Of a stretch of 39,484 nucleotides of DNA, positions 4,295-39,484 are shown piece after piece. Both the position numbers and the translations under genes were made by a program. Every line of letters starts with the position of its first letter. Positions within the stretch are counted from its first letter, which is position 1. The DNA is from Deltaproteobacteria bacterium (GTDB taxonomy: Bacteria; Myxococcota_C; UBA6777), in contig PCBK01000107.1 in NCBI GenBank assembly GCA_002731275.1, positions 1 to 39,484 of the forward strand, written 5' to 3'. The notes under the pieces are model-generated. The model worked only from the letters and a program-made list of their open reading frames with translations, made no database searches and had not been told where the DNA came from.

Positions 4295-4421
4295 GCGGCC
4301 TAAGTTGTCCTCTCGCGAAGTAAGCGGATGAGCATGATGTTACATTTTTTTCCGTAGGGTCGGGCCTTGTGTCCGACCTCGATGTTGTATGTCTTTTTCG
4401 CGAGAGGACCACTTAGGCCGC
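4295..4421. repeat. 127-bp element bounded by 24-bp inverted repeats
   Basis: The arms at 4295-4318 and 4398-4421 are inverted repeats of each other with a single mismatch (a core is tcctctcgcga). The 79 bp between them holds a second hairpin, ggtcgg-9 nt-ccgacc, near 4359-4380. The element fills most of the 345-bp gap between the Cys-rich protein and the glycosidase-like lipoprotein. It has no open frame of note. It could be a small non-autonomous mobile element or a structured leader RNA; I see no second copy in this window. Confidence 0.75.
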
Positions 4422-28882: not shown

Positions 28883-29662
28883 ATGAAAGCAAAAAAAAAG
28901 AGTGTCTTGCTGAGGTTGTTGGGGATTGCGTTGTCGTTATTTGTGCTCTTTGGTTTGTCAGTCGCTGGAGGTCTACTTTGGTGGGTGATGAAGAAGCCCG
29001 GAGGAACAGCATTACCTCTGGATGCGGCGTTGATTTCGCTTGAGAGTCCTCGTGGTAAAGCGCTGCTGGCGTCGAGCACAGCAAAGGGGGATTGGCCTCG
29101 ATTGAAGCGTCACTTTGTGCCACAAAGTAAACGTTCCTTTTGTGGCGTTGCGTCGAGCACGATCGTACTCAACGCGCTCGCTGTGAGGTCGCCAAAGATA
29201 ACACAGGAGACCTTCTTTCAACAACGTGGGAAGGGGACGGTTTCTTTTTGGAAGGTCCTATTCACGGGGATGACACTCGAACAGCTTGCGAAGCTGCTCC
29301 AAAGACAGAACATACAGGTGAAGCATTTTCATGCAGATCGTTCGACACTCAAGGACTTTCGCACACATGCGCGCAAGGTGTTGACAAAGGAGCGCGTGTT
29401 CTTGGTCGTGAATTATGCTCGAAAGGCCCTCAAGCAGGTTGGTGTCGGTCATATCTCTCCTATCGCAGCGTATCACAAGAAGAGCGACAAGATGCTCGTG
29501 TTGGACGTCGCTTCACACAAATACCCGCCTGTGTGGGTGGACACAAAGATGTTGTGGAAGGCGATGGCTACGGTGGATAAAGAGAGCAAACGTTCTCGTG
29601 GCTGGGTGCATGTCGGAGTCAAGTCGTTGGCGATAAGAAAGCGCCCGCAAAAAGGCAGGTGA
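28883..29662 (+). CDS. Membrane-anchored phytochelatin-synthase-like Cys protease
   Basis: 259 residues. A single N-terminal helix (about 8-36) anchors the protein with its bulk outside the cytoplasm. Residues about 75-235 match the phytochelatin synthase domain: FVPQSKRSFCGVASSTIVLNAL with C87, VGHISPIAAYH with H190, and LVLDVASHKYPPVW with D208, i.e. the papain-like Cys-His-Asp triad. Bacterial homologues usually cleave glutathione to gamma-Glu-Cys rather than make long phytochelatins. The first codons include a run of nine A (28891-28899) where slippage could shift the frame. Follows the radical SAM gene by 27 bp on the same strand. A repeat array starts 19 bp after its stop. Confidence 0.88.
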   Translation: MKAKKKSVLLRLLGIALSLFVLFGLSVAGGLLWWVMKKPGGTALPLDAALISLESPRGKALLASSTAKGDWPRLKRHFVPQSKRSFCGVASSTIVLNALAVRSPKITQETFFQQRGKGTVSFWKVLFTGMTLEQLAKLLQRQNIQVKHFHADRSTLKDFRTHARKVLTKERVFLVVNYARKALKQVGVGHISPIAAYHKKSDKMLVLDVASHKYPPVWVDTKMLWKAMATVDKESKRSRGWVHVGVKSLAIRKRPQKGR

Positions 29663-29681: not shown

Positions 29682-29897
29682 CTGCCGCGCTCCGCTTGCC
29701 TCTGGCCACTCTCTCTATGGGCGAGTTGCCACTCTCGATGGGCGAGTTGCCACTCTCTACGGGCGAGTTGCCACTCTCGATGGGCGAGTTGCCACTCTCT
29801 CTACGGGCGAGTTGCCACTCGCCCTTACTGACGCGCTCCGCTTGTCTCTGGCTGACGCGCTCCGCTTGTCTCTGGCTGCCGCGCTTTGCTTGGCATA
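29682..29897 (+). repeat. Tandem array 5' of structured element E1
   Basis: One unit ctgccgcgctccgcttgcct at 29682, then five units gggcgagttgccactctc(gat/tac) starting at 29719, 29740, 29761, 29782 and 29805 (21-23 bp apart), then units of 24 bp, ctgacgcgctccgcttgtct, at 29828 and 29852 and a variant at 29876. The array runs straight into stem 1 of E1. Frames are open across it, but unit lengths that are not multiples of three argue against coding. Confidence 0.9.
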
Positions 29898-29991
29898 GTG
29901 GGCTGGCTGCCCACACCCGCCTGGGGTCGTTGCCCCCAGACCCCTACGATACTTCGTATCGTTTGTGTTCCGACTGCGTCGGTTTTTGGAA
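29898..29991 (+). other. Structured repeat element E1 (four hairpins)
   Basis: Four perfect hairpins in series: GTGGGC-5-GCCCAC (29898-29914), CTGGGG-7-CCCCAG (29921-29939), ACGATAC-3-GTATCGT (29946-29962) and CCGAC-3-GTCGG (29970-29982), joined by ACCCGC, ACCCCT, TTGTGTT and ending TTTTTGGAA. Stem 4 plus five T could work as an intrinsic terminator in this copy. It lies between the phytochelatin-synthase-like gene and the next gene. The linkers recur in E2-E5 while the stems change with pairing kept. Confidence 0.85.
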
Positions 29992-30206
29992 TACTCTCTT
30001 GGCTTGTCGGTTTTGGGTTGGGGAGAAGCTGTCGTGTATGGCTTGGTGAGAATGATATCCACTGGACAAGCACACTTTTGTGCTGATGTGTTGGACTTCT
30101 CTTCTTGTGTCGTGGCTGTGATAAGTTTTGACGTGTCTTCCAACTATGCTGGTCTCTATCACACAGAGCCAATGTTTTGCTCTTTACACGATGGAGAATG
30201 ATAGAC

Positions 30207-30890
30207 ATGTCCACACAAACAAACAAACAGACAGATATCCTCACACAATTTGAAGCCATTGGCGTTGACAAGGAAGAAGCGCTCTCAATGATGAGCAGAT
30301 TGCTTTACGAGATCGTCTCCTTTGAAGGGGGAGAATATAAAGGAGAGAAGTATCTTGAGCTTCCAAATCCTTGGGGGATTGATGTTGACAAGAGCGCTGA
30401 TAAGAAACTGCACTGTAACCACACCTTCTACGACGCCGGTGAATGTCCGCTCGCATCTGTGAAGAGGATTCGTGCGCCTTCAAGTGAGATCAAACTCTTG
30501 TGGTCGTGGAGGGGTATCAACCTCGAAGATGAAGTGGAGGTCCTCCTTGATCGATTCGAAGTCGATAAGGACAACAAGCGCGAAGCGATCAAGGCATTGT
30601 TTGTGTCTTTGCCCCAAAAAGCGGATGAGGTGCTGTTTGATGGTGCACTACTTGTCGAGAACTTCTCCGGTGTGAACTCCGATCACAGGGGCTCGGATCA
30701 TTGTTTGCTGCGACTTCCCTTTTTGTCGTCAGTAGAGTGCGCGTCGCCCACTTTGAGAGACTTTGTCGACACGTTGTTCTTGGTTAAGTCACACAAGTTC
30801 GATCGCTGGTACGAGATGTTTTCTTCGTGTCGTGTGGTTGGGGAGGATGGTTATTATACGCTGACGATGGGATTTGACCACGGCTCTTGA
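30207..30890 (+). CDS. Unknown protein flanked by structured elements
   Basis: 227 residues, soluble, no signal peptide or membrane helix. It starts with a polar TQTNKQTD stretch and a short helical region (LTQFEAIGVDKEEALSMMSRLLYEIVSF), then a mixed alpha/beta body with an HCNHTFYDAGEC segment and WSWRG. I do not recognise a family. ATG at 30207 has GGAG 10 nt upstream; ATG at 30198 is too close to it. E1 lies 215 bp upstream and the next tandem array begins 20 bp after the stop. Confidence 0.7.
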   Translation: MSTQTNKQTDILTQFEAIGVDKEEALSMMSRLLYEIVSFEGGEYKGEKYLELPNPWGIDVDKSADKKLHCNHTFYDAGECPLASVKRIRAPSSEIKLLWSWRGINLEDEVEVLLDRFEVDKDNKREAIKALFVSLPQKADEVLFDGALLVENFSGVNSDHRGSDHCLLRLPFLSSVECASPTLRDFVDTLFLVKSHKFDRWYEMFSSCRVVGEDGYYTLTMGFDHGS

Positions 30891-30911
30891 GCGCTAGGCC
30901 TGGAGAGGACT

Positions 30912-31190
30912 TTTGCCACTCTCTCTACGGGCGAGTTGCCACTCTCTCTCTACGGGCGAGTTGCCACTCTCTCTGCGGGTGAGTTGCCACTCTCTCTCTA
31001 CGGGTGAGTTGCCACTCTCTCTGCGGGTGAGTTGCCACTCTCTCTCTACGGGCGAGTTGCCACTCGCCCTTACTGACGCGCTCTGCTTGTCTCTGGCTGA
31101 CGCGCTCTGCTTGTCTCTGGCTGCCGCGCTTTGCTTGCCTCTTGCTGACGCGCTCTGCTTGTCTCTGGCTGCCGCGCTCCGCTTGGCATA
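30912..31190 (+). repeat. Tandem array 5' of structured element E2
   Basis: Units gggcgagttgccactctctc start at 30929, 30954, 30977, 31002, 31025 and 31050, with spacing alternating 25, 23, 25, 23, 25 bp, i.e. a 48-bp higher-order repeat. They are followed by 24-bp units ctgacgcgctctgcttgtct at 31073, 31097, 31121, 31145 and 31169, which also alternate between ctgacg and ctgccg forms at the end. Same design as the array at 29682 but longer. Confidence 0.9.
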
Positions 31191-31284
31191 GTGGGCTGGC
31201 TGCCCACACCCGCCTGGGGTCGTTGCCCCCAGACCCCTACGATACTCCGTATCGTTTGCGTTCCGACTGCGTCGGTCTTTGGAA
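31191..31284 (+). other. Structured repeat element E2 (four hairpins)
   Basis: Nearly identical to E1: stems at 31191-31196/31202-31207, 31214-31219/31227-31232, 31239-31245/31249-31255 and 31263-31267/31271-31275. Differences from E1 fall only in the loop of stem 3 (tcc for ttc), the linker (TTTGCGTT) and the tail (TCTTTGGAA), none inside a stem. Confidence 0.85.
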
Positions 31285-31316
31285 CATCAGGAGTGTGTGA
31301 TCTGTATTGAGTGGGG

Positions 31317-31369
31317 CTTGCTTTCAAAATGAAAACCCACCCACGATGAGATTGTCTTTTTGAGAGAGA
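31317..31369 (+). repeat. Short direct repeat R3, copy 1
   Basis: About 53 bp starting cttgctttcaaaatgaaaac and containing cccacccacgat, similar with scattered changes to 35445-35498. It sits 33 bp after E2 and 40 bp before the pentapeptide-repeat gene, so it may hold that gene's promoter. Confidence 0.6.
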
Positions 31370-31408
31370 AGTGTCCGGTTATGAGCTCATTGAAAAAGGA
31401 GGAGCGTT

Positions 31409-32071
31409 ATGGGAAATCAATTCCATTTGGACAAATTACAAGAGGCGTTGGATGCGAAAGACATCGGCATCTGGAACGATTGGCTTGATGAACAGACTGA
31501 CAAAGAACCTGACTTCAAACCGGATCTTAGAGAGGCCAAATTGCAAGGGGCGAATTTGGAACATGCGAATCTCGATGGAGCCAACTTATGCAAAGCCAAC
31601 CTTTGCAACGCGAACCTTATGGGTGTGAATTTTTCTGAGGCAAATCTGGAAGGAGCGGAGCTCAAAGAAGCCAACCTCGTTGGCGTCAACTTCGAAGGAA
31701 CCAATCTCTGTGAATCCAATCTTTCTGGAGCCAATCTTTCGATGGCTGAGTTCCTTAATACAAAATTGGCAGGAAGCAACTTTGATGGGGCCAACTTTGC
31801 GAATGCCCACCTTGGAAATGCAAATTTTTCTGGAGTAGACCTTCAAAGTGTGAACTTCTCTGGAGCGGATCTTACTAGAGCTGATCTTACTGGAGCATGT
31901 TGTACAAAAGCTCGATTCAAAAGTGCTATCCTGTACGAGGTCACTATAGAAAAGGCTGATCTGTCAGGTGCTATCCTTGACCAAGCAACCATTGATAGAA
32001 GCTTTTTGGAAAAGGCTTTCTTGGAAGAGTGGGAGAGTAATGGGGGCATTCTTGCCGATGACGTAGAGTAA
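31409..32071 (+). CDS. Pentapeptide-repeat protein
   Basis: 220 residues. After a 38-residue helical start, about 31 pentapeptides of the A(N/D)LxG type run from residue 39 to about 195 with few breaks (LQGANLEHANLDGANL, LTRADLTGACCTKARF), predicting a right-handed square beta-helix. No membrane segment. Family roles vary, from DNA mimicry (Qnr, MfpA) to unknown; nothing here points to gyrase binding. The ribosome site AAAGGAGG is the strongest in the window. It lies between E2 and E3. Confidence 0.9.
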   Translation: MGNQFHLDKLQEALDAKDIGIWNDWLDEQTDKEPDFKPDLREAKLQGANLEHANLDGANLCKANLCNANLMGVNFSEANLEGAELKEANLVGVNFEGTNLCESNLSGANLSMAEFLNTKLAGSNFDGANFANAHLGNANFSGVDLQSVNFSGADLTRADLTGACCTKARFKSAILYEVTIEKADLSGAILDQATIDRSFLEKAFLEEWESNGGILADDVE

Positions 32072-32112
32072 AGCCAAGGTCTTGACTTGATTATCTTTCT
32101 TTTTTGTAAATA

Positions 32113-32233
32113 CGCGAAAACGTCGCGTCGCGACGGTTGAGCACATGTGTTTCCAAGCGCCGAAAGCGCAACACAAACAATGCGTGAGCATTGTGGGGTT
32201 CGGGGTGAACCCCCCGAGCGGGTGTGGGCGGCA
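32113..32233 (-). other. Structured repeat element E3
   Basis: Minus orientation. Going down from 32233: linker CACACCCGC, a stem-2 region where GGGGTTC/GAACCCC (32195-32213) and CGGGG/CCCCG (32201-32216) are alternative pairings, stem 3 ACAATGC-4-GCATTGT (32177-32194), linker TTTGTGTT, stem 4 GCGC-5-GCGC (32157-32169), TTGGAA, then an extra hairpin CGTCGC-3-GCGACG (32121-32135). Stem 1 is lost in this copy and there is no tandem array on its 5' side. Confidence 0.75.
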
Positions 32234-32362
32234 AATGTCGAATGTTCGCTCTTTTGAGAAGTTGGATGTTGTTTTGTTAGGGGTTTGGTGGTTGTTTGGG
32301 TTCTGTGTATTTTGGAGGTTTTTTCTTCAAACAGCAAAGGAATTTATTGGCAGCGATAAGCG

Positions 32363-32391
32363 TTGAGAAAATGCAAGGTTCAAAATATATC
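32363..32391 (+). promoter_or_regulatory. Putative promoter of the membrane pentapeptide gene
   Basis: TTGAGA (32363-32368), 17-bp spacer, TATATC (32386-32391), 31 bp before the ATG at 32423, in an A+T-rich stretch after E3. Confidence 0.4.
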
Positions 32392-32422
32392 CGGTAGATT
32401 GTAATTTCACAGGTGATGCTTC

Positions 32423-34321
32423 ATGACGGAATCGAATCGTTTGAAAGACGAGCAACAACTCGAAAATGAAAAGTCACTGCAGGCACAGTGGCGTTTTTTT
32501 ATTTTAGGTTTTGTGTTTTCTATGACATTGGGTGTTCCACTTGCGATGTGGGGGATATATACACTTGCCGACAATGTTACATTCCTTACTTTTTTGAGGC
32601 TGTTGCTCATCGGACTTGTCGTCTTTGTGATGGTGGTGCTTGTTTGGTTTCGTAAGTGGGTATTCAAAACGTGGAATATTCCAGGTAAGCAGAGCATTCT
32701 TGAACTCCTTAAACATCTCAAAAACCTCCTTCGTGCGATACAACAGGAGGATGTGCAGGGAATGAAAGACGAATCGACTTTGCTTGCAAAATCCGTGATT
32801 GCAAGCTATGGGTGGTGGGTGGTTGTTGGCGTTGCTATCAGCACTGTCTTTGGCCTTGTTATGGCATTTGGAAGTCTCCTTAACTCGGCTCTTACTTGGA
32901 AAGGTAACTCTATCGCCAAAATTCAAAACGTCAAAATCCAAAGACAAAATGAGCTCATTTCTCAACAAAACAAAAACCTTATCTTGCAGTTACAGTCGCA
33001 AAGAGAGGGAAATATTAACTCGGAAGTCACCAAGTACATCGATATGGCGTTTAGTGGGAATAGAGAGAAGTTCTGGGTTGCTGTCTCTTACTTTAAGGCA
33101 TTTTCAGAAACACTCCAAAACAGTGAAAAAACCATTTCGTCAAAAGGGAAGTCAAAACAAAAGCAAAAGGACGCGCAAGATGAATCCAGAAGAAGGAGAG
33201 TTGAGGCGAAGAGTGTTCTGATTCGACTCACGGATATGTTGCAAACGATCAGAGGGAAAGCCTCATGTCGTATGTTGGAGCTGATGTATCATGTTGCTGT
33301 CAAACACGACGTATCGAAGCTGTTCAGAAAGCTGAATGCAAAGAAAGGTATACATACGATTCGAATTACAAATTTGGATTGTTCGGCAAATCATATGCGA
33401 AAAAATAAGGAAGGCAAAAAAGCAAAAGGCGGAGGTCTGAACCGTTCAATTGATCTTCGTGGTATTGTGCTTACGAATGCAATCCTTGTGAATGCGAAAC
33501 TCAAAGGAGCTGATCTGAGAGGGGCGAACTTTGAAGGTGCGAATCTACAGGAAGCCGACTTGGAGAGAGCATATCTTCAGGGTGCAAATTTACAGTACAC
33601 TCATCTCCAAAAAACCAATTTGCAACAAGCTAACTTGCAAGGGGCATGGCTCCGAAAGGCTCGTTTTCAGAGGGCTGATTTGCGTCGAGCAAACTTACAG
33701 GACGCTCAATTGCAAGGAGCTCAACTTGGTAGAGTTCCAAGAAAACCTGTCGTTGTTGCTATTTCAACCAAAGAACCCCCGAGGTTTACTCCCTACAGCG
33801 AAAGAGAGAGCGATTTTGAAAAAGAGTATGTACAAGGAGCCGATTTGAGAGGTGCAAAGCTCGAGAGAGTTGATCTTTCAGGTGCCAATCTTAAAGAAAC
33901 AGACTGTCGACTCGCCAATTTCAGAGGAGCGATTCTCACTGGCGTAGACTTTTCAAATTCCCAACTGCAAGGTGCGATTTTTTGGGAGAATAAGCTTCGA
34001 AAGGCTGTGTTTAAGAATGCAATGTTGCGAGGTTCAACGTTTTCGATCGATGCCATCATTTTCTTACTTAAGTCTTCTGGCATGCAAGCAAATCAGCTGG
34101 GAAATGCTGCTTGCATACCAGGGGGAGGAGATAGTATGGAATCCTGTTTCCTATGGCATAACAGGGGAGTAAAGGGCATTCGTGAAGTCGGGAGCATTCC
34201 CCAAAGTATTCCGAAAGGATGTCCTCGCGTGTTGGATGGTCCTATCATTTCCATTCGTTCCAATTCCCGCAAAAATAGCCTTGATGGAGTATGTCCTCGT
34301 TGGACAATCAAAGGCAAGTAG
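32423..34321 (+). CDS. Membrane protein with coiled coil and two pentapeptide-repeat blocks
   Basis: 632 residues. Membrane helices at about 25-47, 53-76 and 129-152, then a Gln/Asn-rich coiled coil (165-195), a basic charged helical region (200-315) and a first pentapeptide block at about 340-440, a 28-residue break, and a second block at about 468-540. The last 90 residues are Cys/Gly/Pro-containing and unassigned. The reading frame is more A+T-rich than the left part of the window and rich in Lys, Asn and Gln, which suggests acquisition. The ATG has AGGTGA upstream. The 293 bp after it hold no gene that I can see. Function unknown. Confidence 0.85.
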   Translation: MTESNRLKDEQQLENEKSLQAQWRFFILGFVFSMTLGVPLAMWGIYTLADNVTFLTFLRLLLIGLVVFVMVVLVWFRKWVFKTWNIPGKQSILELLKHLKNLLRAIQQEDVQGMKDESTLLAKSVIASYGWWVVVGVAISTVFGLVMAFGSLLNSALTWKGNSIAKIQNVKIQRQNELISQQNKNLILQLQSQREGNINSEVTKYIDMAFSGNREKFWVAVSYFKAFSETLQNSEKTISSKGKSKQKQKDAQDESRRRRVEAKSVLIRLTDMLQTIRGKASCRMLELMYHVAVKHDVSKLFRKLNAKKGIHTIRITNLDCSANHMRKNKEGKKAKGGGLNRSIDLRGIVLTNAILVNAKLKGADLRGANFEGANLQEADLERAYLQGANLQYTHLQKTNLQQANLQGAWLRKARFQRADLRRANLQDAQLQGAQLGRVPRKPVVVAISTKEPPRFTPYSERESDFEKEYVQGADLRGAKLERVDLSGANLKETDCRLANFRGAILTGVDFSNSQLQGAIFWENKLRKAVFKNAMLRGSTFSIDAIIFLLKSSGMQANQLGNAACIPGGGDSMESCFLWHNRGVKGIREVGSIPQSIPKGCPRVLDGPIISIRSNSRKNSLDGVCPRWTIKGK

Positions 34322-34614
34322 AGCAACGGCATTAAGTTCAAATGGTAGGGGAGGATGGCAATACTCTGTAGCATAAGAGGAAAATATATGGTATAAGCCT
34401 TTTCAAGCACACTCTTGATGGATTGTAGAGTCTTTTTGTCCAAATCGTACCTTGGCTTGGAAAAAGATACTTGACTTGCTTTAACTGAAAAAAAACATTG
34501 AGGATTTATCTCTTGCAAAGCTGCTTTTATCACTAAGCAAATGGCGCGAACCTGAAATCCATTAAGAGCGTACAAGTAAGTTGGTATGTTCAGTAACCCA
34601 CAAAGGAGACCCTA

Positions 34615-35250
34615 ATGTCCGAATACGAAAAAGCTGCGATGGAATGGCTTGGAAAGCATCACTACGAAATTGTAGGGGAAAACGAGAAAGTGAAAGGGCA
34701 AGGGAAGGAACACAAAGTTCGTGTTCATGCGTTATCTGCAAATCGAGAGTACATGAAGTTTGCAAAGATTGCGACTTTTGTTGGTGTCGTTTCATTTCTT
34801 GCGTTGTTTGCTGGTGAGTCGATTCCTGCACTTGCTGGATTGATGAGGGACTTGGGAAGTATCTTTGGTATCGCAGGAAAAAGCTTTTCGTTGATACTTT
34901 TTTTGGGGGGGGGGTTCTTTTATACCAATGCAAAGGGGAAAATAGACGAGCACGTTTGGGTTGAATTCAAAAATTACAAAAGAAGGGTCAACTCGAATGA
35001 GATTGGGAAATTCTACTCTACTGTGGAGGATGTGAGTAAAAAGTCGAAAGAAATAAGTGACCAATGGGAAGCAAAGTATATGATGCTGTTTTCATCAACG
35101 GGATTTAGCGCACAAGCTCTTCAACTGGCGGAAAACTATGGGATAGATTGCTTAACTTGGAAACAAGGTACAGATCAATTTGAAAGAGAAGTGTGGAGTC
35201 AAGCTGATCTCGAGACACAAGAAGAAGTGGAAGATAACAGTGACTCGTAA
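34615..35250 (+). CDS. Mrr-like (PD-D/ExK) protein split by a transmembrane hairpin
   Basis: 211 residues. Residues 7-42 read like the first half of an Mrr/type-IV restriction-endonuclease domain (AMEWLGKHHYEIV...GKEHKVRVHAL); 110-182 read like its second half (VWVEFKNYKRRVNSNEIGKFY, MLFSSTGFSAQALQLAENYGIDCLTW), with E117 and K119 as the ExK pair. Between them two hydrophobic helices (about 48-67, 84-104) are inserted. The Asp expected at position 36 is Arg, so cleavage may be lost. GGAG lies 7 nt before the ATG. A T7-G10 run falls in the second helix (34898-34914). Family call is from motif similarity only. Confidence 0.7.
   Translation: MSEYEKAAMEWLGKHHYEIVGENEKVKGQGKEHKVRVHALSANREYMKFAKIATFVGVVSFLALFAGESIPALAGLMRDLGSIFGIAGKSFSLILFLGGGFFYTNAKGKIDEHVWVEFKNYKRRVNSNEIGKFYSTVEDVSKKSKEISDQWEAKYMMLFSSTGFSAQALQLAENYGIDCLTWKQGTDQFEREVWSQADLETQEEVEDNSDS
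34898..34914 (+). repeat. T7-G10 homopolymer in the Mrr-like gene
   Basis: Seven T (34898-34904) directly followed by ten G (34905-34914), coding for LFLGGG in the second membrane helix. Gain or loss of one G would truncate the protein before its ExK half. Confidence 0.9.
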
Positions 35251-35444
35251 ATAGGGTGAGTAAGTGGATCAACGACCTTGTTCCGATTTACCAGGTGGTA
35301 CCAATCATAGAACGTTGGAAGGCCTCTTCGGATACCTTGCAAAATGTACAAATATCCCAACATCGAATGCACTCGCTATCTGTTATGGGGTTGTTTTTGC
35401 TGTGAGAGAATGTCATCGTGATGATGCTCCGTTTTGTGTGTGGT

Positions 35445-35498
35445 CTTGTCTTTAAAACAAAAACCACGCCCACGATTAGGTTGTTTCTTTTGAGAGGA
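35445..35498 (+). repeat. Short direct repeat R3, copy 2
   Basis: Similar to 31317-31369 (shared cttg...aaaac, ccacg/cccacgat, ttgtttcttttgagag). No gene starts soon after it, so it may be a relic. The 194 bp before it, after the Mrr-like gene, show nothing I can name. Confidence 0.55.
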
Positions 35499-35548
35499 GC
35501 CTGTCTTTGTTTGGTGGCTGGGTTTACGGATTGCTCCTCTTGTGTTTA

Positions 35549-35676
35549 CGCGAAAGCGTCGCGTTGCGACGGTTGAGCACATGCTCTTCCAAGCGCCGAA
35601 GGCGCAACACAAACAATGCGTGAGCATTGTGGGGGTCGGGGTGAAAACCCCGAGCGGGTGTGGGTGGCAAACCCAC
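35549..35676 (-). other. Structured repeat element E4 (most complete copy)
   Basis: Minus orientation, from 35676 down: stem 1 GTGGGT-5-ACCCAC (35660-35676), stem 2 CGGGGT-4-ACCCCG (35637-35652; the plus strand has a GAAA loop), stem 3 ACAATGC-4-GCATTGT (35613-35630), TTTGTGTT, stem 4 GCGCC-3-GGCGC (35593-35605), TTGGAA, then extra hairpins GAGC-4-GCTC (35575-35586), CGTCGC-3-GCGACG (35557-35571) and a small CGC-4-GCG (35549-35558). It lies between the ends of two converging genes. Confidence 0.85.
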
Positions 35677-35757
35677 ATACAAAAGGCAAACCCACATACA
35701 AAAGGCAAACCCACGTACAAAAGGCAAGCCCACATACAAAAGGCAAGCCTACATATA
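35666..35757 (-). repeat. 19-bp tandem array 5' of structured element E4
   Basis: Five units ggcaaacccacatacaaaa at 35666, 35685, 35704, 35723 and 35742, the last partial, with few changes. The first unit supplies one arm of E4 stem 1. The array ends 15 bp from the stop of the CobW-like gene. No spacers, so not CRISPR. Confidence 0.92.
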
Positions 35758-35772
35758 TCCACTTTCTTTGTG

Positions 35773-36780
35773 TCAGGAACTTGAGGAGACAACACAGCCA
35801 AGCAATGTTTTTTCCCACCCTTCACCAAGCTCGGTCGCGATCATTTCCACACGACTCTCCAAGCAGTCGTCCAATTCGACCTCAGTTAAGCCATCTGACG
35901 TCAAGTTGTAGCCATAGACCCCTTCATCTGTGATAAACACACCTTTCAATCGTTCGACATCAAGGCTGTAAAAGAATGTTCGTAGCTTGTCGCGGTCGAA
36001 GACTTTGTGTGGTGTGATTCGCCAACCAATGCTCTTGAATCCTTCGCCCTCATTCACCGCTTTGACATATCCACATGCAGGGATAGGGAGGTCGTAGAGC
36101 GAAGGCTCATCTTCTTCGTGGTGATGGTGAGCATGACCCTCTCGTGCGACAGAAGAAGTCGGACCCTCCAACCAGGATGGCTCTAAGCGTGCTTGCTCTG
36201 TGATGAACACCTGTGCGTTTGGAGCCCGCTTTTTTGTGTATGCCTCCAACGCCTCCACATCCCCTTTCTGGTAGAGGTCACGTTTGTTTCCCACGATGAC
36301 ATCTGCGATCGCGATCTGTTGGTTGAATGTCTCGTGTTCTGTGTAGCGACTATCCGCGAGCTTACGTGCATCGACGAGTGTAAGGAGCTTTTGCATCGAT
36401 AATACGTCGCGGTAATATTCGCCTGTGAGGACTTGTAACACTTCTACGGGGTGACCGAGTCCTGTCGGCTCGATCAACAACCGATCTGGTCGTGCTCGTC
36501 CGAGCAGTATGTTCAGCGAGACACGCATCGAAAATCCTGCCGTGCAACACATACAACCACCAGGAAGTTCGCGAATGAAGACCCCATTCTCTTCGTTTTG
36601 CTGGCCTTCAAAAAGACTCCCGTCCACACCAATCTCACCAAACTCATTGACCAAAACAGCCCATCGTTCGTGCTTTGGCTTATGTTTTAGCAGGTGTAGT
36701 ATCGCTGAGGTTTTTCCAACACCCAAAAAGCCCGTGATGATGTTTGTCGGGACATTCAAGATCTTCTTCCTTGCGGCCAT
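35773..36780 (-). CDS. COG0523 (CobW-type) metallochaperone GTPase
   Basis: 335 residues. Walker A GFLGVGKTS at 17-25, the metal-binding GGCMCC motif at about 74-79, IEPTGLGHP, and NKRD as the guanine-specificity motif. A His cluster HAHHHHEEDE precedes the C-terminal domain. COG0523 GTPases insert or deliver metal ions, most often zinc; cobalamin-related members exist but no cobalamin gene is near. AGGA lies 7 nt before the ATG. It follows the His-tailed transporter by 36 bp on the same strand and shares its promoter, so zinc or a similar metal is the likely cargo. Confidence 0.92.
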   Translation of the reverse strand: MAARKKILNVPTNIITGFLGVGKTSAILHLLKHKPKHERWAVLVNEFGEIGVDGSLFEGQQNEENGVFIRELPGGCMCCTAGFSMRVSLNILLGRARPDRLLIEPTGLGHPVEVLQVLTGEYYRDVLSMQKLLTLVDARKLADSRYTEHETFNQQIAIADVIVGNKRDLYQKGDVEALEAYTKKRAPNAQVFITEQARLEPSWLEGPTSSVAREGHAHHHHEEDEPSLYDLPIPACGYVKAVNEGEGFKSIGWRITPHKVFDRDKLRTFFYSLDVERLKGVFITDEGVYGYNLTSDGLTEVELDDCLESRVEMIATELGEGWEKTLLGCVVSSSS

Positions 36781-36816
36781 TTTTCGTCCTTTTCCATGAT
36801 GGTGTATTGGCTACTT

Positions 36817-37329
36817 CTACTCATGATGATGGTCATGGTCATGTTGATGTCCATGCTCATGGTGTTCATGGTCATGAGTGTGTTCGTCACAAGTCCCGTG
36901 TTCATGGTCATGGTCATGGTGATGCTCACGGTGTTGATGGTCATGAGTGTGTCCGTCGCAAGTTTCGTGTTCATCATCATGATGTTTGTGTTCATGACTG
37001 TGGCTTTTGCAAGTCCCGTGTTGATGCTCATGATGTTCATGGTCATGAGTGTGTCCGTCACAAGTCCCATGTTGATGGTCGTGCTCATGTCCATGATCGT
37101 GATTGTGTCCGTCACAAGTCCCATGTTGATGGTCATGATCGTGGTCTGAGTGGTGTGCATGATCATGTCCGTCACGAGTTCCATGATGATGGGAATGTTT
37201 ATGTTCATGAGCATGGTGTTGGTGGCCATGACTGTGGTCATCTTCGTCATTTTGGTGGACGTGAAAGTGGTCGTGGCTGTGGCTATGTCCGTGGCTATGA
37301 TCATGGTCGTGGCTGTGGTCGTGGTCATG
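36817..37329 (-). repeat. Coding repeats of the His/Cys tail
   Basis: The tail is built of imperfect units of 17-22 residues that each begin HGTCDGH/HETCDGH and continue as His-acid pairs. Five such units end the protein. Long open frames on the plus strand here are by-products of the biased sequence. Confidence 0.88.
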
Positions 37330-39129
37330 TCCCGCGATCTGAAACACCTGTCCAATCATAAAGCGAGGGCCACACCGCCACAAGGACATAAGCACGAGGA
37401 CACCAAGGATGACGAAGCTGGTGATGTTGATGATGCCAGGGGATTGATGGGCCGAAGTGTGTAGCGTTTTTGCATGTTGAGCGATGGGGAAGAGTACATT
37501 GACACCCCAACCCAGGCTACAAGAGACTACAAACATCGCACCTGCAAAGGCAAAGGCGGCACGGGGACCATGCAATGAGCGCAACAGTCCGAAGGTCGTG
37601 ATATTGGTCGCAGGACCTGTGAGCAAAAAGGCGATCGCGGCACCTGGAGAGAGACCTTTATGAAGGAGGATCGCAACCAGTGGCGTTGTCCCTGACGCAC
37701 AGACGTACAAAGGCATCCCGGCAATGGCCATCAGAGGGACCTGTAACATCGATGGGAGTTTTGATAATGAACCTAGCGGCATCGCAGGTTCAAGCAGCGC
37801 TGCGAGCAACAATCCAAACAAAATCCAGGGCATGATGTGATCAAACATCTCCCCAAACCCATAGTGAAGTCCTTCTCTCAAGCGCATCATAAGAGGAGTT
37901 GTCGGTTGCTCCTGTGTCTCGCTTTGTACTTCTTTGTCGGGCATACAGAGCTGTCCTACAAGAAGCGCGACGACAACAGCCGCGATGATCGCTGTGACAA
38001 GTCGAAGTGCCGTCAGCTCGACACCAAGTAGAGGTAGAGAGAGTAAGATCGCGTCAAATCCCAACTCCGGCGTCGCGATCAAGAAAGCAATCGCTGCTGT
38101 ACCCGGCGCACCTGCACGAATCAAACTCTGGTAGAAAGGCACAACCCCACACGAGCAGATGGGAAGTGGGAGACCAAACGCCATACCACGAAGACTTTGA
38201 CTGAGTGAGGAACCACGCCACAACCAGGCCATAGAGGCCGGACGGATGAAGGCGTGCAGCGCACCAGCCCCCAGAAACGCCAACAACAAAGCAGGCGCGC
38301 TCTCTAACGTCAGCCACAAAAAAGTTTGCTCCATCGTCAGGACATTCATTTGTGGGTGTGCTGATGAATGGTTCCACGAGATCGCCACCAACAACACAAT
38401 CCCCAACATGACACCCCCAAAAGACCAGCGTCTCTTGTCTGATGAGTGGATATCCACTGTTGGTGGTTCATGCCCAAACAGGACGTGCAACAACATCCCC
38501 GCCATCATCGCCTGAAAGACCATAAGCCATTCCTGTTGGAGCTTGGAGAATGTTTCGTGCCCAAGCAGATATCCCAACGCTGTGAATAGGCTGATCGAAG
38601 AGACCGCGAGCCATGCCCCACTTCTTTTTTTGCCAGGATACACGAACCAGGCCAGCGCAATCCCCACAGGAACGCGATGAAGCACTACTCCCAATGCCAA
38701 CATGTTCCAGTCTGTGTGTTTGCTCCCCACGAGAGATAACGCCATGCCGTCGAGCATCGAGTGGATCGCGACGGCGAAGAAGACCAGCCATCCCAAAGGT
38801 TTTGTCGCGCCTCCCTGCCAAAGTCCCTTGGAAGCCCCCCATTCCAATAGGATGGGCAAAAGTAACCCCAAAAAGAGCGCGAAGACTGCCCATCCACCAC
38901 CTCTTCGGAGACTGTGTGGTAGTACGTGTACAAGCACCAACCCCCCAACTGAGACCAAGACAAACCCATCAAGTAAAGCCAACCATTCACCACGTCGACG
39001 CAGCAATGGAAATGCCAAGACACCAATACATAACGATACAATACTGAGAACAAACAACCACACAGACAACCTCCAATCTGTCGGACTTGTTTCCTCGTCC
39101 TTTTCTTCCCGGATGATTGTCACGCTCAT
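36817..39129 (-). CDS. ZIP-like module fused to an SO_0444-type metal permease with a His/Cys-rich tail
   Basis: 770 residues, about 16 membrane helices. Residues about 20-222 resemble ZIP transporters, with the metal-site helices AIHSMLDGMAL (H123, D127) and VVLHRVPVGIAL (H151, P154). Residues about 270-595 match the permease family that includes SO_0444 (PICSCGVVPFYQSLIRAGAPG, IATPELGFD, VCASGTTPLVAILL, LLTGPATNITTFGLL). The tail 601-770 is almost only His, Asp, Glu and Gly with repeated HGTCDGH. ZIPs import and SO_0444-type permeases are linked to export, so the joined pair is odd. ATG at 39129 chosen; the frame is open to 39285 but crosses the promoter. Confidence 0.88.
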   Translation of the reverse strand: MSVTIIREEKDEETSPTDWRLSVWLFVLSIVSLCIGVLAFPLLRRRGEWLALLDGFVLVSVGGLVLVHVLPHSLRRGGGWAVFALFLGLLLPILLEWGASKGLWQGGATKPLGWLVFFAVAIHSMLDGMALSLVGSKHTDWNMLALGVVLHRVPVGIALAWFVYPGKKRSGAWLAVSSISLFTALGYLLGHETFSKLQQEWLMVFQAMMAGMLLHVLFGHEPPTVDIHSSDKRRWSFGGVMLGIVLLVAISWNHSSAHPQMNVLTMEQTFLWLTLESAPALLLAFLGAGALHAFIRPASMAWLWRGSSLSQSLRGMAFGLPLPICSCGVVPFYQSLIRAGAPGTAAIAFLIATPELGFDAILLSLPLLGVELTALRLVTAIIAAVVVALLVGQLCMPDKEVQSETQEQPTTPLMMRLREGLHYGFGEMFDHIMPWILFGLLLAALLEPAMPLGSLSKLPSMLQVPLMAIAGMPLYVCASGTTPLVAILLHKGLSPGAAIAFLLTGPATNITTFGLLRSLHGPRAAFAFAGAMFVVSCSLGWGVNVLFPIAQHAKTLHTSAHQSPGIINITSFVILGVLVLMSLWRCGPRFMIGQVFQIAGHDHDHSHDHDHSHGHSHSHDHFHVHQNDEDDHSHGHQHHAHEHKHSHHHGTRDGHDHAHHSDHDHDHQHGTCDGHNHDHGHEHDHQHGTCDGHTHDHEHHEHQHGTCKSHSHEHKHHDDEHETCDGHTHDHQHREHHHDHDHEHGTCDEHTHDHEHHEHGHQHDHDHHHE

Positions 39130-39168
39130 GACATGAACTTGATTCTCCGGAATCTTTTTAGCCTGCTT

Positions 39169-39197
39169 TTGATAATGAATTGTCATTAGCATGTCAA
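39169..39197 (-). promoter_or_regulatory. Promoter with Fur/Zur-like operator of the metal operon
   Basis: Minus-strand TTGACA (39197-39192), 17-bp spacer, TATCAA (39174-39169), 40 bp before the ATG at 39129. The palindrome TAATGA-CAAT-TCATTA (39188-39173) fills the spacer and overlaps the -10. Its flanks (GATAATGA on the plus strand) resemble Fur-family boxes. A bound repressor would block RNA polymerase, as expected of metal-sensing Zur, Fur or Mur. Confidence 0.65.
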
Positions 39198-39323
39198 GCA
39201 TCGTTTTGAGGAAGGTCGGTGTCTGGAATGTCAGGATTACGCGTGTTTTTTGTGAGAGGTCAGTTCTCCGTTTTACCTGTCTCATCAGGCGAGAAAGCAG
39301 GGCAAGTTTCCACTTGTCCCTGT

Positions 39324-39432
39324 CTGCCGCGCTTTGCTTGTCCTTGGCTGCTGTCTTTTTGGGCGAGTTACCACTCGCTCTCTACGGGCGAGTTGCCACT
39401 CGCCCTTACTGACGCGCTCCGCTTGTCTCCTT
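39324..39432 (+). repeat. Tandem array 5' of structured element E5
   Basis: ctgccgcgctttgcttgtcc at 39324, two gggcgagtt(a/g)ccactcgc units at 39361 and 39385, and ctgacgcgctccgcttgtct at 39409. Same modules and order as the arrays at 29682 and 30912, but shorter. Confidence 0.85.
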
Positions 39433-39443
39433 GTGTTGTCTAT

Positions 39444-39484
39444 GTGGACTTGCCGTCCACACCTGCCTGGGGTCGTTGCCCCCA
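39444..39484 (+). other. Structured repeat element E5, cut by the window end
   Basis: Stem 1 GTGGAC-5-GTCCAC (39444-39460), linker ACCTGC, then the left arm, loop and most of the right arm of stem 2 (39467-39484). Stem 1 differs from E1 and E4 on both arms together. Confidence 0.8.

Follow-up and report, generated by a model that had tools for sequence, protein, structure and literature searches.

Strings of covarying hairpins in a deltaproteobacterial genome: a modular intergenic repeat that fits palindromic DNA better than selected RNA

We analysed a stretch of 39,484 nucleotides (hereafter the window; positions 1 to 39,484 of contig PCBK01000107.1, assembly GCA_002731275.1) from a Deltaproteobacteria bacterium (GTDB lineage Bacteria; Myxococcota_C; UBA6777), in which a first-pass annotation, made from the sequence alone, had described five copies (E1 to E5) of a new repeat built of serial hairpins. 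All five were found, E1 at 29898 and E2 at 31191, E3 and E4 on the minus strand at 32232 and 35676, and E5 at 39444. Two details depart from that description: in E3 stem 1 has no 5' arm, and E5 is truncated. The repeat-bearing part of the window contains the following features.

29701 to 29897, plus strand: module array 5' of E1, with GGGCGAGTTGCCACTC modules followed by GACGCGCTCCGCTTGTC / GCCGCGCTTTGCTTGGC modules
29898 to 29982, plus strand: E1 string, with stem 1 at 29898-29914, stem 2 at 29921-29939, stem 3 at 29946-29962 and stem 4 at 29970-29982
30913 to 31190, plus strand: module array 5' of E2, with the same two module types as 5' of E1
31191 to 31275, plus strand: E2 string, four hairpins
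31298 to 31366, plus strand: composite-centre fragments (ACCCACCCACGATGAGATTGTCTTTTTGAGAG) joined to E2, with 75-94% identity to composite centres elsewhere in the genome
31409 to 32071, plus strand: pentapeptide-repeat protein gene, between the halves E2 and E3
32112 to 32234, minus strand: E3 string, second half of the composite, of the seven-hairpin type, with no 5' arm in stem 1
35406 to 35539, minus strand: centre of the composite of E4; composite homology starts here or inside, and the other string is missing
35540 to 35676, minus strand: E4 string, of the seven-hairpin type, with stems 1-4 plus GAGCATGTGCTC, CGTCGCAACGCGACG and ACGCTTTCGCGT
35666 to 35760, minus strand: tandem array of 19-nt stem-1 5' half-hairpins (GTGGGTTTGCCTTTTGTAT), outside E4 (family D9)
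39354 to 39443, plus strand: module array 5' of E5
39444 to 39484, plus strand: E5 string, comprising only stems 1-2 before the contig ends

Genes of a metal-handling neighbourhood lie in the same part of the window, namely phytochelatin synthase (28883-29662), a CobW GTPase (35773-36780) and an 822-amino-acid protein (36817-39285) with ZIP-like and ArsP_1 permease domains and a long histidine-rich stretch.

The string reads, in order, stem 1, ACCCGC, stem 2, ACCCC, stem 3, YTGTGTT and stem 4, the linkers of E1 being ACCCGC (between stems 1 and 2), ACCCCT (stems 2 and 3) and TTGTGTT (stems 3 and 4). Stem 1 occurs as GTGGGC, GTGGGT or GTGGAC, each with the matching arm; stem 2 has CT, TC or TT 5' of GGGG and AG, GA or AA 3' of CCCC; stem 3 is ACGATAC, ACGATGC, ACAATGC or ACGATGT; and stem 4 is GCGCTC, CCGAC, GCGCC, CCGCC or ACGCC. 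The compensated stem changes among E1 to E5 were seen as first described. Diversity values of the linkers were 0.07 for ACCCGC, 0.04 for ACCCC and 0.16 for YTGTGTT, with about 0.14 for the stems and 0.20-0.42 for the loops. Relative to shuffled sequences, folding gave z = -3.8 for E1 and z = -6.6 for E4.

The window turned out to show pieces of a larger unit, a composite of two strings placed head to head. Of the 17 neighbouring pairs less than 600 bp apart, 13 had this head-to-head arrangement (p about 1e-5) and the tail-to-tail one did not occur; ten head-to-head pairs aligned across both strings, most of them also across a shared centre of ~200 nt. E4, together with the centre next to it, makes up the 3' half of one such composite (35406-35676); another is made up of E2, the centre fragments at 31298-31366 and E3, with the pentapeptide-repeat gene, which may be cargo or a later insertion, in the middle. 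The outer ends of the composites in the window genome are palindromic hairpins. The left boundary is ragged because arrays of hairpins and half-hairpins lie to the left of stem 1 (the GGGCGAGTTGCCACTC modules 5' of E1 are mostly half hairpins, with only the final one complete), and the right boundary, past stem 4, is sharper. A separate dispersed repeat of ~111 bp was also seen in the window (4301-4411), 92% identical to a segment that has been inserted into a composite centre (C177:40276-40900) and is bounded there by the inverted ends CTCTCGCGAA / TTCGTGAGAG; this repeat is possibly a MITE.

Further copies were sought using a covariance model of E1-E5, which gave at least 125 in the 10.75 Mb genome, a lower bound because 150 of the 965 candidates were scored. 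In the 1.42 Mb of sequence examined, mostly around hits, there were 127 matches with contig-end duplicates counted, and nine control stretches picked independently of the hits contained no string copy. Gene context, based on gene calls from a simple hexamer script rather than a standard caller, was available for 103 copies, all of which were intergenic (0 of 103 inside genes). Convergent gaps were enriched (31 copies, against 14% expected by length) and divergent gaps depleted (14 copies, against 33% expected by length). No flanking gene family recurred across phyla, or clearly so in the window genome. The repeats appear to break the assembly, because the right end of the window (39401-39484) matches both ends of contig C15 (L090), identical over 54-84 bases, and 24 of the 127 copies lacked a gene call on one side owing to their position close to where a stretch or contig stops. 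Two frequent CRISPR-like repeats were noticed in the examined stretches, one with TTTTAATCTCCGTTGGAGCGACGTTGGGGTGGGAAG (about 60 copies) and one with CGACCAATCCACTACAACAAGGATTGAAAC (about 50).

We then analysed the covariation in this larger set and found it significant in all four stems. In a structure-fitted alignment of 123 distinct copies, 18 of the 23 stem pairs had changes on both sides, and 255 double-changed cells were counted compared with 66 +/- 6 after shuffling (0 of 500 shuffles reached the observed value) and at most 27 when the partners were slid. A MAFFT alignment of 81 intact copies, made independently of the structure, showed that the top five covarying column pairs of 4,186 were all stem pairs, one each in stems 1, 3 and 4 and two in stem 2. 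Each exceeded every value of a tree-based null, a result to be read as support rather than as an exact probability because the null presumes tree-like descent, a premise that recombining copies break. Hairpin alleles are shuffled between copies, with 63 copies carrying 32 combinations of the four stems in partial linkage.

The covariation had originally been read as strong evidence that folded RNA or single-stranded DNA is under selection, with an RNA motif at transcript ends as one possible role. Selected RNA helices usually contain many G·U pairs, and on the functional strand G·U far outnumbers A·C. When the 81 intact copies were aligned without fitting to the structure, stems 1-3 contained 1,523 Watson-Crick, four G·T and eight A·C pairs, and stem 4, read from the copies by a script, contained 495, two and three respectively. 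For the four stems together the numbers were 2,018, six and 11, with G·T not exceeding A·C. The alignment fitted to the structure, which is biased toward pairs and takes in degenerate copies, had 38 G·T versus 19 A·C among 2,542 cells, so that G·T made up 1.5%. At co-directional gene pairs the string ran along the genes in 31 cases and against them in 27, showing no preference, and the related strings of a sister genus were balanced as well (10 versus 10). Of the hallmarks of a structured non-coding RNA, helix covariation was present, whereas G·U tolerance and a consistent orientation to genes were not. A terminator-like or mRNA-stabilizing RNA at transcript ends, kept by selection on the folded molecule, would agree with the location of copies downstream of genes and in convergent gaps, with the strong folding and the near-invariant linkers, and with the sister-genus strings that finish in a G-rich arm followed by T-runs. 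We nevertheless consider it rather unlikely, in view of the lack of a preferred direction, the lack of a G·U excess outside the structure-fitted alignment, the T-run that is mostly absent downstream of the strings of the window genome itself and the lack of a matching Rfam family. Palindromic DNA fits better than selected RNA because there is no wobble excess in the unfitted alignment, no orientation and a shuffling of alleles; it was the covariation, not the selection on RNA, that stood. None of the outcomes named beforehand as refuting the original observation occurred, since further copies, significant covariation and the absence of an Rfam match were all observed. Arms matched by a DNA-level origin, combined with hairpin exchange, fit the observations better than slow compensatory RNA evolution does, and a function of the fold may be compatible with such an origin.

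The repeat is unnamed, with no paper or Rfam family found for it. An Rfam search of the window yielded no match at the gathering level, in agreement with the original remark that no named element like it was known, and a permissive search of related loci gave sub-threshold matches only; a literature search by printed sequence and keyword, in which subscription papers were thinly covered, retrieved no description. The nearest Rfam likeness was the Clostridiales-2 RNA (RF02937), with which a Synergistaceae unit, GGGGTGCAGGGG...CCCCTGCCG, aligns at 28.4 bits, far under the gathering threshold of 58.6 bits, and with which the window has no match. The RF02937-like Synergistaceae strings form a pair at L193 7815-7892. 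From this sequence likeness, the RF02937 family may include a unit of the hairpin-string repeat class. BOX elements of Streptococcus pneumoniae are also modular intergenic structured repeats, in which the number of internal modules varies, and the strings would be similar to them in modular build.

Evidence for transposition came from the same family. Searching four other genomes of the family by pattern revealed a related string in two, with at least 40 copies each. This sister-genus string (GTGGGG..CCCCAC ACCCC GCAAGGGG..CCCCTTG ACCCC plus a third domain) is the body of an element of ~170 bp with the terminal inverted repeat (TIR) AGGACTTACGCAGTTG, only some of the strings being so bounded. 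For one copy in genome G002 there is an empty site in its congener G004, and the 7-bp sequence ACCAGAT flanks the filled site on both sides, in an alignment complicated by local tandem duplications beside the filled site in G002. This one TIR-bounded copy, inserted with a target-site duplication, is the direct demonstration of insertion, and it concerns the sister genus only. Target duplications of 6-7 bp were found at nine of the 14 TIR-bounded copies (five with a string), compared with 1.4 expected by shuffling. Because TIR elements free of strings, ~114 bp in length, are also present in the sister genus, a MITE family may carry the string along. The likeness to MITEs (~170 bp, the TIR, target duplications of 6-7 bp and one empty site) was seen only in the sister-genus version. 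In the window genome the TIR AGGACTTACGCAGTTG is absent, a search around the strings revealed neither TIRs nor target duplications, flanking inverted repeats were no commoner than in the control, and the composite ends are hairpins. The suggestion that the hairpins are a substrate of a transposase or recombinase gained indirect support from the TIRs, target duplications and empty site of the sister genus, but not from the window genome, where transposition would be inferred by analogy. G004 also contains another short repeat (C372:19123-19243, L387), which measures about 115-120 bp and is bounded by TACGATATCCGC / GCGGATTTCGTA; it is missing at the orthologous place in G002 and has many similar copies in the sister genus.

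Similar strings were also found in other phyla. A pattern consisting of the 3' arm of stem 1, the linker, the core of stem 2 and ACCCC matched at least 109 stretches, and the matches listed included Clostridia, Turicibacter, Synergistota, Desulfovibrionales, Myxococcota, Magnetococcales, Alphaproteobacteria, Chloroflexota and Actinomycetota. Among the matches listed, 89 of 112 had the 5' arm GTGGG, which lies outside the pattern, and in 92 of 112 stem 2 spanned 7 bp or more and ended at ACCCC, compared with 21 in the shuffled control. Counts for a hairpin-unit pattern (control in parentheses) were 309 (8) in a Turicibacter MAG, 115 (0) in an Oscillospiraceae MAG and 86 (0) in a Clostridiales MAG. 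Stem 2 across phyla had 768 Watson-Crick, two G·T and ten A·C pairs; pair counts made for the sister genus, in which stem 1 was out of register, were set aside. In the Oscillospiraceae MAG, essentially the only difference between two copies in the region of stem 1 is a compensated T-A to C-G change, and the same MAG contains mirrored elements of ~400 bp ending in TTGTTCCTCCA, with no target duplication. As for mobile replicons, neither E1 nor a Desulfovibrionales string had a plasmid match, the latter had no phage match, and IMG/VR gave three matches to the pattern. The likeness across phyla may reflect homology or convergence, the pattern search itself selecting for likeness, and the GC-rich actinobacterial matches are the weakest cases. 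It is conceivable, as a tentative extension, that the strings of hairpins spaced by ACCC linkers all belong to a single widespread superfamily of mobile palindromic DNA with a patchy occurrence in several phyla; these would move free of Y1 transposases by a mechanism that reads the folded strand or a cruciform, with arms matched by co-conversion at the DNA level in a way that mimics RNA covariation.

The closest kinds to the hairpin strings are BIME/REP/REPIN elements and MITEs. REPs are intergenic palindromes that occur in inverted pairs and avoid promoters (Di Nocera 2013, PMC3733652; Bertels and Rainey 2011, PMC3116915), and the strings resemble this group in being numerous intergenic palindromes in inverted pairs with a mosaic make-up, which prefer convergent and unidirectional gaps over promoters. 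As a mosaic of opposite palindromes and other motifs in intergenic DNA they are organized like BIMEs, a likeness of organization and not membership because the palindromes are not REPs. Membership fails on the tag and on the REP-associated Y1 transposase, RAYT (PMC3733652): the unpaired GTAG/CGTC tag is absent, the GTGG at the start of stem 1 being paired with CCAC in nearly all copies, and no RAYT was found. The strings differ further in their four to seven distinct hairpins separated by fixed linkers, in their long shared centre and in their several fully compensated stem alleles. A REPIN/REPtron would need a RAYT (PF01797 without TnpB) flanked by the palindromes, whereas the intact Y1 genes of the window genome adjoin TnpB in IS605-type elements, and none of them lies between two strings. 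One such element, with divergent tnpA and tnpB (L144 1465-2240, contig C11), ends about 100 bp from a string; its second copy (L148) adjoins none. Moreover, Y1 was undetected in seven of ten other carrier genomes searched, MAGs being incomplete, among them those with 115 and 86 copies. Movement of the strings as REP/REPIN elements by a RAYT, which their general look and the GTGG start of stem 1 would otherwise invite, is thus largely refuted and in our judgement extremely improbable, and the strings apparently do not depend on a Y1/RAYT transposase.

Two further explanations dispense with transposition or place the function in the cell. Purely mutational palindromes, generated locally by quasi-palindrome correction and slippage without transposition or function, are suggested by the tandem arrays of half-hairpins, by an orthologous copy that has one extra 5' half-hairpin in G004 relative to G002 and by arms that change in concert. 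This account is quite unlikely, as it leaves unexplained the similar strings at more than 100 unrelated places, the conserved linkers, the composites and the empty site with its target duplication. If the strings were instead chromosomal sites that serve the cell (through gyrase, a nucleoid protein or replication, as in some roles proposed for BIMEs), this could explain the many intergenic copies and the conserved spacers; we regard it as very unlikely, since the occurrence is very patchy (two of 121 genomes in one order, and two of the four other family members by pattern) and there is no candidate protein.

Taken together, our results suggest that the strings are probably a DNA repeat comparable to BIMEs and MITEs, modular, intergenic and non-autonomous, with arms that would be kept matched at the DNA level. 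Each string consists of short palindromes lined up with conserved C-rich linkers between them, and two strings facing each other across the centre of ~200 nt make the larger unit of the window genome. Copies would spread by transposition in trans; between such events, template switching between arms during replication would keep the palindromes perfect, and gene conversion between copies would exchange hairpin alleles. With arms matched in this way at the DNA level, both would change together without wobble intermediates. New copies would be able to persist 3' of genes but be removed by selection from promoter regions. Several points count against this explanation: the strings of the window genome itself showed neither TIRs nor target duplications, only part of the sister-genus strings sit between recognizable TIRs, G·T outnumbers A·C in the structure-fitted alignment, the mirrored elements of the Oscillospiraceae MAG have no target duplication, and the near-invariant linkers could also reflect selection on a function.

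These repeats fill much of the intergenic DNA in several uncultured lineages and sit at many contig ends. They also carry a caution for RNA discovery, since strong covariation in all helices is possible in palindromic DNA that lacks the wobble and strand signature of RNA. The strings offer a testable system for the upkeep and spread of perfect palindromes in genomes where no RAYT was found.
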